Source of the DNA: Clostridia bacterium
GTDB taxonomy: Bacteria > Bacillota > Clostridia > Oscillospirales > Feifaniaceae
Length of the DNA: 64,000 bases
Direction: 5' to 3'
Assembly: GCA_017517965.1 (NCBI GenBank)
Contig: JAFWXR010000005.1
Coordinates: 1-64,000 of the forward strand
In this document: piece after piece, positions 17,451-31,256 of the stretch
Numbering within the stretch: position 1 is the first letter of the stretch
How the letters are laid out: each line of letters starts with the position of its first letter
The notes under the pieces: model-generated
Databases searched by the model: none
Told to the model about the DNA's origin: nothing
The model's input: the letters and a program-made list of their open reading frames with translations, nothing else
Position numbers and translations under genes: made by a program

Positions 17451-17725
17451 GGACGTGTTCACATAGGAATGAATCGGTTTTGGCTTGATATTTTCCGTTA
17501 ATACTTCATAAAAAAATTCCGTAATACACAAAGTATTGCGGAATTTTTATTATTTTGTCTAAACGAAAAATCTCTAACCCAAAACTGCAAAGCACCACAA
17601 AAAGCATAATTCTGGACAAAAAATGGAAAAAGATCTCTATAATTCTGATGGTTATGGAGGTCTTTTAACACAGTTGTGCTTAAAATTATGCTTTTTGGGC
17701 GAATAATCCCTAAGTGAACACATCC
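17451..17725. mobile_element. MITE-like element, copy A, carrying a nested insertion
   Basis: The left end GGACGTGTTCACATAGG and the right end (reverse complement GGATGTGTTCACTTAGG) are inverted repeats that continue inward to about 26 bases. Inside are TTTTGG/CCAAAA arms and a hairpin, AAATTCCG...CGGAATTT. The 153-bp element at 31104 has the same ends and core. This copy is longer because of an extra segment at about 17589-17696. No transposase is encoded. Confidence 0.8.
17589..17696. mobile_element. Small element nested in MITE copy A
   Basis: Compared with the copy at 31104, about 103 bases are added after AAACTGC. The insert is bounded by AAAAAGCATAATT (17599-17611) and its exact inverse AATTATGCTTTTT (17684-17696), and TGC flanks the added segment on both sides. 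It encodes nothing. Confidence 0.65.
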
Positions 17726-17774
17726 TAAGTCGAGTGATGAACTCGGGGATTTTTTTATTTACAATTCGGAATTT

Positions 17775-17889
17775 CGTCCTCACAAACTTCGCTTAATTCC
17801 ATTTTGCTATCGCAAAAATTCCATCTGCTTCGTTGCTCGTCCTCTTCCCAACACAACGCACTTCGTTCTGCCTTGTGTTGGGAGCCCTT
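17775..17889. repeat. Dispersed repeat C, copy 1
   Basis: The sequence from CGTCCTCACAAACTTCGC through GCAAAAATTCCATCTGC to the CAACGCACTTCGTTCTGCC segment recurs, with scattered differences, at 37474-37590 inside the ribU riboswitch. AATTCGGAATT motifs flank this copy on both sides. Confidence 0.75.
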
Positions 17890-17998
17890 TTGACAATTCG
17901 GAATTAAGGAAGAAATTCCCGTGGAATTTCAACCGAACTTATTCACTCTTCACTATTACCTATTACTTCAACATCGTCCCGTTAAAAGACTGTCGGAA

Positions 17999-18205
17999 AA
18001 ACAGAAAATGCAAAGAAAAGAAAAGTAACCAAAAGAAAAGAAATAAAAATAAAAGAAAAGTAAAGAAAAGAAAATTAAATAAAAGAAAAGAAATGAAAAA
18101 TTATTTTTTCTGAAAAAATCGCCATTTTTTCGGAAAATATCCCACAAAGAAAAGAAAATAAAAGAAAAGTAAAGTAAAGTAAATAAAAGTAAATAAAAGT
18201 AAATG
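17999..18205. repeat. Purine-rich AAAAGAAAAGTAA tract with two palindromes
   Basis: Two hundred bases of A-rich units such as AAAAGAAAAG and AAAGTAAAG surround two adjacent palindromes, ATTTTTTCTGAAAAAAT and a TTTTCGGAAAA variant (18103-18140). The antisense reading frame is Phe/Leu/Ser-only and not credible as a gene. With the elements before and after, this accounts for the gene-free stretch 17449-18416. Confidence 0.65.
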
Positions 18206-18254
18206 TTCTCTGCACGTGCGTGCAAAAAAATTTTTAGGAAATCACAAAAAATAC

Positions 18255-18283
18255 TTGACAAATTCCGAAAATCCGAATATAAT
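18255..18283 (+). promoter_or_regulatory. Fully consensus promoter with no protein gene downstream
   Basis: TTGACA (18255-18260), 17 bases, then TATAAT (18278-18283). The next gene lies on the opposite strand, so the transcript would run about 130 bases to the terminator at 18383. Confidence 0.8.
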
Positions 18284-18289
18284 ATAACC

Positions 18290-18417
18290 ATAAGTTAAGG
18301 AATTCCGAAAATAACACGGTTTCGCTGCTTTAAGGGGAAGGCGTAGGGGCAGGGATGCGATAAATAGGGCTACACGTTGACAAAAAAACAGAGCAGACTT
18401 GAGTCTGCTCCTGTTTT
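18290..18417 (+). ncRNA. Candidate small RNA of about 130 nt
   Basis: The unit is defined by a perfect promoter and a strong terminator with no usable reading frame between (the one ATG is followed at once by CGA TAA). It has an AAGGGGAAGG segment and a G-rich stretch with four G-runs around 18333-18355 that could base-pair with mRNAs or form a two-layer quadruplex. It does not look like SRP RNA, tmRNA or RNase P RNA, and is short for 6S RNA. The function is unknown. Confidence 0.5.
18383..18417. terminator. Bidirectional terminator for the small RNA and the GNAT gene
   Basis: AGCAGAC pairs with GTCTGCT around TTGA, extended by ACAG/CTGT past a one-base bulge, with A- and T-tracts on either side. 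Confidence 0.85.
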
Positions 18418-18854
18418 TAAAAGTATTTTCTCATTCGGATGTGGTCGGTGGGGGAGTTCTTCATTAAATAAATCTCACCGTACGCCTCATACCCGTGCTT
18501 TTCGTAGAATTTCTGTGCACTCGTTCTCGCTTCGAGAATGAGAACGGGAGCACCCTTTGATGCAACCCACTTCTCAACGTCCTTGATAAGCATTGAGCCG
18601 ATGCCCGATTTCTGTACCGTATCGTCAACGCACAGAAAATCAAGACAGTATTCACCGTCAAGTTTGCCGACTATACTGCAGCCGAGCATCTTATCCCCGT
18701 CAAACGCCCCGATTATACGTGAATTCACTTCAAACGTGTAATCCTGGTCGTATATGCTAAGCCCTATCGGCACTCGCATAATTCTGTTACGAAGCTCACG
18801 CGTCATCTCGTATTCGGCGGAGCCGTATGTAATTTCTCTTAATTCAATTCCCAT
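18417..18854 (-). CDS. GNAT-family N-acetyltransferase
   Basis: The 145-residue protein has the GNAT core: DFLCVDDTVQKSGIGSMLIKDVE (acetyl-CoA loop near 80-86) and a C-terminal AQKFYEKHGYEAYGE segment. The ATG at 18854 lies two bases past the yebC stop, with GGAAGAG ahead of it; a longer frame would overlap yebC. It is the last gene of the seven-gene minus-strand run that starts with rimO. Substrate unknown. Confidence 0.88.
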   Translation of the reverse strand: MGIELREITYGSAEYEMTRELRNRIMRVPIGLSIYDQDYTFEVNSRIIGAFDGDKMLGCSIVGKLDGEYCLDFLCVDDTVQKSGIGSMLIKDVEKWVASKGAPVLILEARTSAQKFYEKHGYEAYGEIYLMKNSPTDHIRMRKYF

Positions 18855-18855
18855 T

Positions 18856-19578
18856 TTACTCTTCCCAGTTGTGCCATACGTTCTGAACGTCGTCATCCTC
18901 GTCGAGCATATCGATGAGGCGGTTCATAAACTTCAAGTTTTCGTCACCCTCGATTTTTGAATATGTAGAGGGAACCATTTCATTTTCTGCGGAAACGAGC
19001 GTGTAATTCTTCGCCATAAGCGCCTCTGCAACCGCTGAAAGTGCCGAAGGCTCGGTCGATATGGTGAATACGCCCTCTTCCTCCTCAAAGTCGGATGCAC
19101 CTGCATCAAGAGCGTCCATCATAACGGTATCTGCATCAAGACCTTCGCTTTCGATTATAATAGTGCCCTGCTGTGAGAACATCCAGCCGACGCTACCCGT
19201 CTGTCCGAGATTGCCGCCGTTTTTATCGAAATAGTGGCGCATATTTGCCGCCGTTCTGTTTCTGTTATCGGTAAGCGTTTCGACCATAAAGGCAACACCG
19301 CAGGGACCGTAACCCTCGTAGTTGATTGCCTCGTAGTTTTCGTTATCGTCAGCCGAGCTTGCCTTCTTGATAATACGGTCAATATTGTCGTTGGGCACGT
19401 TAAGTGACTTCGCCTTTACGATAAGGTCACGAAGCTTGGAGTTTGATTCGGGGTTGGGGCCGCCTGCCTTGACCGCCATACTCATCTCCTTACCGATTTT
19501 GGTGAAAACCTTAGCCTTTGCGGCATCGGATTTTGCTTTCTTGTTTTTGATGTTGTTCCATTTTGAATGTCCGCTCAT
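18856..19578 (-). CDS. YebC/TACO1-family regulatory or translation factor
   Basis: The 240-residue protein begins with the family hallmark MSGHSKWNNIKNKKAKSDA and contains YEGYGPCGVAFMVE and NGGNLGQTGSVGWMF. YebC proteins were first called transcription regulators; recent work ties the family to translation of proline-rich stretches. The ATG at 19578 has GGGAGAC upstream. It lies 25 bases after a YitT-like gene. Confidence 0.96.
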   Translation of the reverse strand: MSGHSKWNNIKNKKAKSDAAKAKVFTKIGKEMSMAVKAGGPNPESNSKLRDLIVKAKSLNVPNDNIDRIIKKASSADDNENYEAINYEGYGPCGVAFMVETLTDNRNRTAANMRHYFDKNGGNLGQTGSVGWMFSQQGTIIIESEGLDADTVMMDALDAGASDFEEEEGVFTISTEPSALSAVAEALMAKNYTLVSAENEMVPSTYSKIEGDENLKFMNRLIDMLDEDDDVQNVWHNWEE

Positions 19579-19603
19579 AATTGTCTCCCTGTATATTAAA
19601 AAA

Positions 19604-20461
19604 TTATTCCTGAATATGAAATCCGTTTCCGAAAACTGCGGTCGCATCGGAAAAGATTATGAATGCCTTATCATCCGTCTCCTTCACAATCCTGCGGAGT
19701 GAGGCGAGCTGATAACGCCTGATAACGACCATTATAACATCTTTTTCTTTGCCTGTATAGTGCCCTTTTGCGTGGAGAAGGGTAACGCCCCTCGAAAGAC
19801 CGACGGCTATCGCCTCAGCCATTTTTTCGGTATGCTCTGTCATTATGTGGACGAGTTTACCGTCATCCGCACCTGAGACGATTTTATCGGTCACGGTCGA
19901 ACTTACGAAAATGGCAATCACCGAATAGAGCGCACTCGTAACCTCACGGTAGGCGAGTGCCGCAAAGACGACAACGAACAAATCGAGTGTGAATATGAGA
20001 AATGCGACCGACAAAGCAGGATTTCTTTTCCTTAAAACACGCACGATTATGTCGGCACCGCCCGTCGTCGTACCGCACCGCATCACGATGCCAAGCCCGA
20101 TGCCCATAAGCGCACCGCCGAGTAGGGCAGAGAGCAGTCTGTCCTGCGCATAGGCGGGGATAAGTGCCGTAATATCGAGAAAAACCGACACCGTAAAGGT
20201 GGTCAGCACCGTCGAAATTATAAAGCTTTTGCCGATTTCACGGTAGCCCACAACGAAAAGCGGGATATTGAACAAAAAGCTCAGCGTACCCGTCGGCAAA
20301 AAGGCAAAAAGATGATTGAGTGCCGTGGCAATACCCGTTACACCACCCGGTGCAATATTATTGGGTGCCAAAAATATATTTACCGCAAGTGAGTACAAAA
20401 ACGCACCTGCACTTACAAAAAGAATTGTCTTAAAGTGGAATTTTTCCGATAAGTTCTTCAA
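19604..20461 (-). CDS. YitT-family membrane protein (DUF161 + DUF2179)
   Basis: The 285-residue protein has about five to six membrane helices (residues 10-190), the family pattern APNNIAPGGVTGIA near 35 and GTTTGGADI near 125, and a soluble C-terminal DUF2179 domain (about 205-280). I chose a TTG start at 20461 because TAGGAG lies 8 bases upstream; the frame runs upstream inside mrnC, but no start there has a ribosome site. The start lies inside the 3' end of mrnC, a 32-base overlap. A second YitT protein is encoded at 30249. Transport role unproven. Confidence 0.85.
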   Translation of the reverse strand: MKNLSEKFHFKTILFVSAGAFLYSLAVNIFLAPNNIAPGGVTGIATALNHLFAFLPTGTLSFLFNIPLFVVGYREIGKSFIISTVLTTFTVSVFLDITALIPAYAQDRLLSALLGGALMGIGLGIVMRCGTTTGGADIIVRVLRKRNPALSVAFLIFTLDLFVVVFAALAYREVTSALYSVIAIFVSSTVTDKIVSGADDGKLVHIMTEHTEKMAEAIAVGLSRGVTLLHAKGHYTGKEKDVIMVVIRRYQLASLRRIVKETDDKAFIIFSDATAVFGNGFHIQE

Positions 20462-20816
20462 GCCTCTCGCTCCTACCCGACAGATAAAGCCAGCCGATAA
20501 GCGCCTCAAAGGCGGTCGCCTTGTGATGTGTTATCGGTGAATTTTTCTTTGATACGGATAGTTTGGCATTTCTGCCCCTCATATATACGGAGGTTTCTTC
20601 CTCCGTCAGTAAGGGCAACACGATATCTGCCCACTCACTCTGCGCCGTGGCAGAAACGTATTTGAGTGCCGTGGTGTGAAGTGTGCCGTTGTCGTGCTTT
20701 GGCATTTCGAGAAGTTTTTCCCTTATCATAAGCTCAAACACCGCATCACCTATATAAGCAAGGGTGAGCGCAGGCATTGAGCGAAGTTCTTCTACCGTTC
20801 TCATGCACGGTGCCAT
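20430..20816 (-). CDS. mrnC: Mini-ribonuclease III
   Basis: The 128-residue protein is an RNase III catalytic domain without the dsRNA-binding domain: ALTLAYIGDAVFELMIR (about 17-33) with the acidic active site, and HHKATAFEALIGWLYLSG (about 95-112). In Bacillus this enzyme matures 23S rRNA. It overlaps the 3' end of cysS by 16 bases, a widely conserved cysS-mrnC order. AGGGTG precedes the ATG at 20816. Confidence 0.95.
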   Translation of the reverse strand: MAPCMRTVEELRSMPALTLAYIGDAVFELMIREKLLEMPKHDNGTLHTTALKYVSATAQSEWADIVLPLLTEEETSVYMRGRNAKLSVSKKNSPITHHKATAFEALIGWLYLSGRSERLEELIGKIPL

Positions 20817-22192
20817 TTTACACCCTGCGGTGTGTCTTCAAGAACTATGTTCATCGCTTTGAGTTTGTCTCTTATTGCATCGGCTGTGGCAAAATCCTTC
20901 GCCTTTCTCGCCTCCTGACGCTGTGCGATGAGTGCATCTATCTCTGCATCGAGATCTTCCTTCACTTCGCCTGCCCAGAGGTTAAGAATATTTGCAAGGC
21001 GGTTATAAATCTCGCCTGCCGTTTCAAGATACTCCTTCGATGCACCGTTTGATGCTGAATTTATCTCCCTCGCAATGTCAAAGAGGGCGGCAATTGCATC
21101 TGCCGTATTGAAGTCATCGTCAAGCGCTTCAAAATACTTTGCTTCGGATGCCTTTATTTTTTCAAGTGATGCCTTTTCGGCATCGCTGAGTTCACCCTCG
21201 GCGTGTGAAAGCAAGAATTCAATGTTGTCACGGCAATTCTTGAGCCTGTCAAGCGCCGCCTTTGACGAATTTATGATTTCATCCGAGAAGTTAATCGGAC
21301 TTCTGTAATGTGCCGAAAGCAAGAAGAAACGGATAACGCCGTAACCGTATTTTTCCGAAATGTCACGAACGGTTAAGAAGTTGCCAAGACTCTTACTCAT
21401 TTTCTGATTGTTTATGTTGATGTAAGCGTTGTGCAGCCAGTAGTTTGCGAAAGGACAGCCGTTTGCAGCTTCACTCTGCGCAATCTCGTTTTCGTGGTGG
21501 GGGAAGGTGAGATCCATTCCGCCGCCGTGAATATCAATGGTCTTGCCTAAAAAGCGATTGCTCATCGCAGAACATTCGATGTGCCAGCCGGGACGGCCAC
21601 GACCCCAAGGTGATTCCCAATAGGGCTCACCCTCTTTTGCGGCTTTCCAGAGTGCGAAATCAAGCGGGTCTTCCTTAACGTCACCCACTTCGATGCGGGC
21701 ACCGCTTTCAAGCTCGTCAATCGGCATATGCGAAAGTTTGCCGTAGTCTGAAAAACGGCGTGTTCTGTAATACACGTCACCGTTTACGGCATAGGCGTAG
21801 CCTTTTTCTTCAAGTGTCTTTATAAGCTCAATCATAGCGTCGATATTTTCCGTTGCCTTGGGATGTGTCGTCGCTTTTTTGACACCGAGTCCCTGTGCAT
21901 CGGTAAAATATTCGGCAATATATTTTTCACTTACCTCCTCAAAGGAGATACCCTCTTCATGTGAACGCTTGATGATTTTATCGTCAACGTCGGTAAAATT
22001 CTGCACGAAATTTACCTTGTAGCCCTTGTATTCGAGATAACTTCTGAGTGCATCGAACACGACAAACGGACGTGCGTTGCCTATATGGAAAAAGTTGTAC
22101 ACGGTCGGACCGCAGGAGTACATAAGCACTTCACCCGGATTTACGGGTACAAACTCTTCTTTTTTTCTTGTAAGGTCATTATAGAATTTCAT
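20801..22192 (-). CDS. cysS: Cysteinyl-tRNA synthetase
   Basis: The 463-residue class I synthetase has the HIGH-type motif FHIGNARP (about 36-43), zinc-binding Cys/His positions (including CGPTVYN and WHIECSAMS), KMSKSLGNF (about 267-275) and a helical C-terminal anticodon domain. Its start overlaps the pgsA stop by four bases. No T-box leader is visible; it is read as part of the rimO operon. Confidence 0.97.
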   Translation of the reverse strand: MKFYNDLTRKKEEFVPVNPGEVLMYSCGPTVYNFFHIGNARPFVVFDALRSYLEYKGYKVNFVQNFTDVDDKIIKRSHEEGISFEEVSEKYIAEYFTDAQGLGVKKATTHPKATENIDAMIELIKTLEEKGYAYAVNGDVYYRTRRFSDYGKLSHMPIDELESGARIEVGDVKEDPLDFALWKAAKEGEPYWESPWGRGRPGWHIECSAMSNRFLGKTIDIHGGGMDLTFPHHENEIAQSEAANGCPFANYWLHNAYININNQKMSKSLGNFLTVRDISEKYGYGVIRFFLLSAHYRSPINFSDEIINSSKAALDRLKNCRDNIEFLLSHAEGELSDAEKASLEKIKASEAKYFEALDDDFNTADAIAALFDIAREINSASNGASKEYLETAGEIYNRLANILNLWAGEVKEDLDAEIDALIAQRQEARKAKDFATADAIRDKLKAMNIVLEDTPQGVKWHRA

Positions 22193-31103: not shown

Positions 31104-31256
31104 GGGCGTATTCACTCAGGGATGAATCGGTTTTGGCTCGCTTCATAAAAAATTCCGTAATACAAAGTATTGCGGAATTTTTATTATTTTGTCTAAACGA
31201 AAAATTTCTGACCCAAAACTGCCTTTTGAGCGAATAATCCCTGAGCGAGCACGCCC
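31104..31256. mobile_element. MITE-like element, copy B (153 bp)
   Basis: The ends GGGCGTATTCACTCAGGG and (reverse complement) GGGCGTGCTCGCTCAGGG are inverted repeats. The core holds TTTTGG/CCAAAA arms and an AAATTCCG/CGGAATTT hairpin followed by a T-rich run, identical in order to copy A at 17451. It encodes no protein. Confidence 0.8.

Follow-up and report, generated by a model that had tools for sequence, protein, structure and literature searches.

Between pnp and yebC, a perfect promoter points at an intrinsic terminator across a stretch that holds no gene. The initial annotation read this layout as the gene of an independently transcribed small RNA (sRNA) of about 130 nt. We asked whether that reading stands, and what else could place such a promoter here. 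There are precedents for predicting bacterial sRNA genes in a genome sequence and testing the predictions afterwards, as the titles of published papers such as PMC2573895 and PMC2245857 indicate. Throughout, the window is the whole 64-kb stretch of DNA that was analysed.

A perfect promoter facing no gene

The features of the locus, in window coordinates, are as follows:

18255-18283, + strand: perfect sigma-70/sigma-A-type promoter, TTGACA-17-TATAAT (pattern match; predicted start site near 18290)
18261-18272, + strand: AATTCCGAAAAT, copy 1, in the promoter spacer, a possible operator (repeat search)
18290-18417, + strand: predicted untranslated RNA of about 128 nt, extrapolated from promoter and terminator, with no ORF of at least 20 aa wholly within 18284-18382 and no Rfam match
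18301-18312, + strand: AATTCCGAAAAT, copy 2, at about +12 to +23 from the predicted start (repeat search)
18334-18369, + strand: G-rich stretch (GGGG, GG, GGGG, GGG, GGG) containing a Met-Arg-stop mini frame at 18355-18363 (sequence, G4Hunter, fold)
18383-18418, both strands: bidirectional intrinsic terminator, common to the + strand candidate RNA and the - strand GNAT gene (terminator scan, fold)
18417-18896, - strand: GNAT acetyltransferase gene, convergent, directly after yebC (ORF/protein annotation)

The promoter lies exactly where it had been annotated, with 12 of 12 consensus bases and a 17-base spacer; the start site near 18290 is set by the usual promoter spacing. Perfect promoters were counted as TTGACA/TATAAT pairs with a spacer of 16-18 bases, with the same pattern reversed as the control. 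The window contains four (0.06 expected), and the 1.43-Mb assembly contains 28 compared with one for the reversed pattern. Three of the 28 lie inside same-strand open frames of at least 120 aa (L141, L149, L152), five precede tRNAs (L143, L144, L145, L155, L167), and two have a T-box or TPP leader downstream (L146, L165). An SD-like motif with an ORF of at least 40 aa follows within 320 bases at another 17, which is an upper count because the script rule for SD-led ORFs is loose. Among the 28, the promoter at 18255-18283 alone lies outside a long same-strand frame and has no tRNA, Rfam leader or SD-led ORF of at least 40 aa within 320 bases downstream, by the same loose rule. With the other 27 sites assigned to frames, tRNAs, leaders or SD-led ORFs, a perfect site that lies outside a gene almost always has something to drive. 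The count of 28 against one, together with the surroundings of all 28 sites, makes it very likely that this promoter is real and a signal beyond chance, and inspection of its surroundings revealed no other target. Elsewhere in this genome, tRNA units and T-box or TPP leader units resemble the locus in carrying the same perfect promoter type before a structured RNA, but they have a recognised product and the candidate RNA has none. Two other perfect promoters stand well ahead of their SD-led ORFs, by 236 bases at L162 (G000:C43:179248) and by 142 bases at L148 (G000:C18:46785), where a terminator-like hairpin was seen by eye.

The sequence AATTCCGAAAAT occurs three times in the assembly, twice at this promoter. 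An exact repeat of at least 12 bases arose in one of 2000 shuffles of 18240-18382; of 913 actual stretches of 143 bases from the 64 kb, 8 contain a 12-base repeat, one of them being the region itself and at least three falling within the AAAGA stretch. The two copies bracket the predicted start site and may form the binding site of a regulator that would control the promoter.

These observations bear on a quite different history, in which the promoter once served a lost gene or leader and now yields a functionless short RNA stopped by the terminator of the GNAT gene. Twelve intact consensus bases at optimal spacing speak against such a relic, as drift would soon spoil them, and so does the repeat on either side of the start, which hints at regulation. 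We regard this history as a serious possibility that nonetheless falls clearly short of even, and return to it where later results favor it.

The terminator and the convergent genes

A strong terminator had been annotated at 18383-18417, and the hairpin was confirmed, with arms at 18383-18399 and 18402-18418. The terminator scan picks it up on either strand, with a T tract of 5 T on the + strand versus 7 T on the - strand; its folding energies are -18.8 kcal/mol on the + strand and -18.3 kcal/mol on the - strand. The next gene is, as annotated, on the opposite strand; what the annotation missed is that this GNAT gene shares the terminator and has it in a suitable position. With its - strand end at 18417, GNAT needs a terminator just there, so the hairpin provides no independent evidence for an sRNA, and its position at the GNAT end counts in favor of a relic promoter. 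It should, though, also end the + transcript.

All of the genes from 18417 to 22192 (GNAT, yebC, YitT-family, MrnC-like and cysS-like) are on the - strand; the names MrnC-like and cysS-like are what our own reading suggests, and, also in our reading, the GNAT gene may start at an internal ATG adjoining the yebC stop. A cis-regulatory leader such as a riboswitch or T-box does not fit this arrangement, in which the downstream genes include none on the + strand. Alternatively, the promoter could act on its neighbors, either because transcription toward yebC-GNAT interferes with them or because a leaky terminator lets through antisense RNA to GNAT and yebC. The convergent layout, with two 3' ends overlapping over the terminator, would suit such an effect, but the intervening terminator folds well on both strands, and we consider this explanation unlikely.

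Among 95 related pnp or yebC loci, a yebC match was found in 87 and a GNAT match in none (E 1e-8), a result in keeping with a relic promoter, and no GNAT match was found in viral_contigs. Since both the promoter signal and the terminator are real, a short RNA is probably made between them. Its transcription would start near 18290 and end at the hairpin that it has in common with the convergent yebC-GNAT genes.

The predicted RNA and its relatives

No ORF of at least 20 aa lies wholly within 18284-18382, and the sole ATG there opens the two-codon frame Met-Arg-stop at 18355-18363, bearing out the claim that no coding frame separates the two signals. The motif AAGGGGAAGG and the G-runs described for the RNA were located at 18332-18341 and across 18334-18369, respectively. 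Folded with its terminator, the RNA is more stable than shuffled sequences (z -2.44); folded without it, the RNA is like them (z 0.13, equalled by 108 of 200 shuffles). Outside the terminator, then, no stable structure was found, a property that is helpful but not essential for sRNAs, and a body that folds no better than its shuffles is also what a relic would give.

Of the two modes of action initially proposed, a quadruplex is weakly supported. It has in its favor a G4Hunter peak of 1.8 at 18333, the only 25-mer reaching 1.8 in the window, and the 18334-18369 region is the only stretch with four runs of three or more G on the + strand of the window. It was rejected as the preferred fold, as the minimum-energy fold with quadruplexes allowed still selects an ordinary hairpin. 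Targeting of ribosome-binding sites was not supported: 51% of 2000 random window stretches pair with the SD consensus as well as the RNA does, whereas its pairing with the anti-SD is among the best 4.9% of 2000 such stretches. The purine-rich motif AAGGGGAAGG thus resembles a ribosome-binding site, not the complement of one.

That resemblance raises the alternative of an SD-led two-codon minigene, in which AGGGG followed by ATG-CGA-TAA would capture ribosomes and release Met-Arg-tRNA, or in which the SD-like runs would titrate 30S subunits. The mini frame at 18355 does stand downstream of AGGGG, and the anti-SD pairing exceeds that of most random stretches, but chance easily yields such a frame in a G-rich stretch, and the explanation appears very improbable. 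Similarly improbable is a combined version, in which a repressor with sites at both AATTCCGAAAAT copies, in the spacer and after the start, would control a lineage-specific RNA, and this RNA would act on ribosomes through its SD-like G-runs or the minigene and not by pairing with mRNA.

Membership of a known RNA class in divergent form, for example 6S RNA, would agree with the size of the RNA and its isolated promoter and terminator. Searching Rfam gave no family at the gathering score and only chance-level matches at E up to 10, and the genome has its 6S candidate elsewhere (C56:69194-69399); we give this explanation almost no weight. Identity with 6S RNA (RF00013) in particular was rejected, because the candidate RNA does not match that family and the 6S candidate is separate; the likeness is limited to that of a stable small RNA of similar size class. 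The probable 6S RNA at G000:C56:69194-69399 scores 45.8 bits, just below the Rfam cut-off of 46.4.

Searches for relatives of the RNA returned short matches. Its own genome contains no further copy, the matches besides itself being short and the two inspected (L002, L003) coding-like. A DNA search of 98 relatives at E up to 1 gave a match in 71, own genome included, the best outside it at 9.3e-4; these matches are short and near chance level, and the two inspected (L010, L011) are coding-like. At E up to 0.01, matches were obtained in 7 of the 394 genomes searched from the order, its own among them, again short and near chance level, and the three inspected of the six non-self matches (L036, L037, L041) are all coding-like. 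A covariance model built from the single sequence of the region entered twice found 4 of the 98 genomes, own included, the three others being weak and all overlapping long open frames. At the 95 related pnp or yebC loci there was no credible match to the RNA body; one promoter-like match (L133) lies shortly 5' of drum RNAs (RF02958), and its likeness is to the promoter only. Phages and plasmids gave no match to the candidate RNA. Among exact patterns, 23 bases had no match in genome_contigs, 21 bases had none in viral_contigs, and 17 bases had one match that did not extend.

The suggested check, whether related genomes carry the same unit beside pnp or yebC or at some other site, came out negative, in collections that contain no genus-mate. 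The family is represented in the genomes searched by eight members, its own included, with the other seven all from different genera. Because the nearest YebC is 72% identical and an sRNA need not be recognizable at such a distance, absence from these relatives says little. In these same collections the RNA is a candidate for being lineage-specific, seen in one genome so far; the lack of visible conservation among them is likewise compatible with a relic.

Compared with intergenic, independently transcribed bacterial sRNA genes, the unit is alike in having a promoter, a terminator, no ORF, a length of about 130 nt and a large intergenic gap. It differs in showing neither conservation in the genomes searched nor structure beyond the terminator and in sharing that terminator with a convergent gene, and it is known here from its sequence alone. 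Its own promoter is present as a sequence signal and a coding frame is absent; a terminator is present on the + strand, but it is bidirectional and adjoins the - strand GNAT stop. The proposal of an independently transcribed sRNA of about 130 nt holds in part: an RNA of about 128 nt is the obvious interpretation of a perfect promoter that faces a terminator, and no alternative target turned up for the promoter, but the terminator is shared with GNAT and the body folds like its shuffles. One genome does not allow a unit of this sort to be declared functional, since its terminator also belongs to GNAT and its body folds no better than chance. It is a credible candidate sRNA of an ordinary kind. 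The explanation we favor, to which we give about even credence, is that a strong housekeeping-type promoter gives rise to an untranslated RNA, about 128 nt long, which ends at the shared terminator and serves as a lineage-specific base-pairing regulator. Its mostly unpaired first bases or its G-rich middle would then contact the targets.

Repeats upstream of the promoter and meaning of the locus

The gap between pnp and the promoter at 18255 is built mostly of dispersed repeats, which is again in line with a relic. The first after pnp is a MITE-like element, copies of which are placed as follows:

Window 17451-17725: MITE-like element, first repeat after pnp, whose terminal inverted repeats are about 20 bases long
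Window 31104-31256: MITE-like copy
G000 C56:69478-69758, C29:26371-26652, C6:47552-47769 and C18:45354-45541: further MITE-like copies

Next come a second dispersed repeat of about 117 bases at 17774-17893, present in at least 10 other places of G000 in copies 81-95% identical, and, upstream of the promoter, low-complexity AAAGA/AAAGT units at 18008-18203. A 21-mer from the start of the latter stretch, GAAAAGTAACCAAAAGAAAAG, is also found in four viral contigs.

The MITE-like family measures 153-279 bases and has the terminal inverted repeats GGGCGTGTTCACTTAGGGAT and its complement; relatives at about 74% occur in G009 and G051. An earlier, cruder measure counted the pairs across the junction and failed to set most copies apart from random sequence, and a stricter measure of perfect stems was then used. 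By this measure, joining the flanks yields a stem of 11-13 pairs without a mismatch in three of the six complete copies (C56, C29, C18), each matched by 0.07-0.18% of 20,000 random 60-mers. The perfect stem is absent from the other three (17k, 31k, C6) and from the single G009 copy for which both ends were found. As modelled from these joined flanks, the family splits predicted intrinsic-terminator hairpins in three of its six complete copies; in C56 the hairpin that is split adjoins the 6S candidate. Terminators serve as targets for group IIC introns. No MITE aimed at terminator hairpins is described in the titles or abstract openings of the literature searched.

A MITE-like family that splits predicted terminator hairpins in half of its complete copies may matter more than the candidate sRNA itself. 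If expressed, the latter would add one more sRNA gene to a very common kind, so far known from a single genome in a clostridium-like lineage with poor sampling. Its value would be that of a clean test case, with one perfect promoter, one terminator and no gene.
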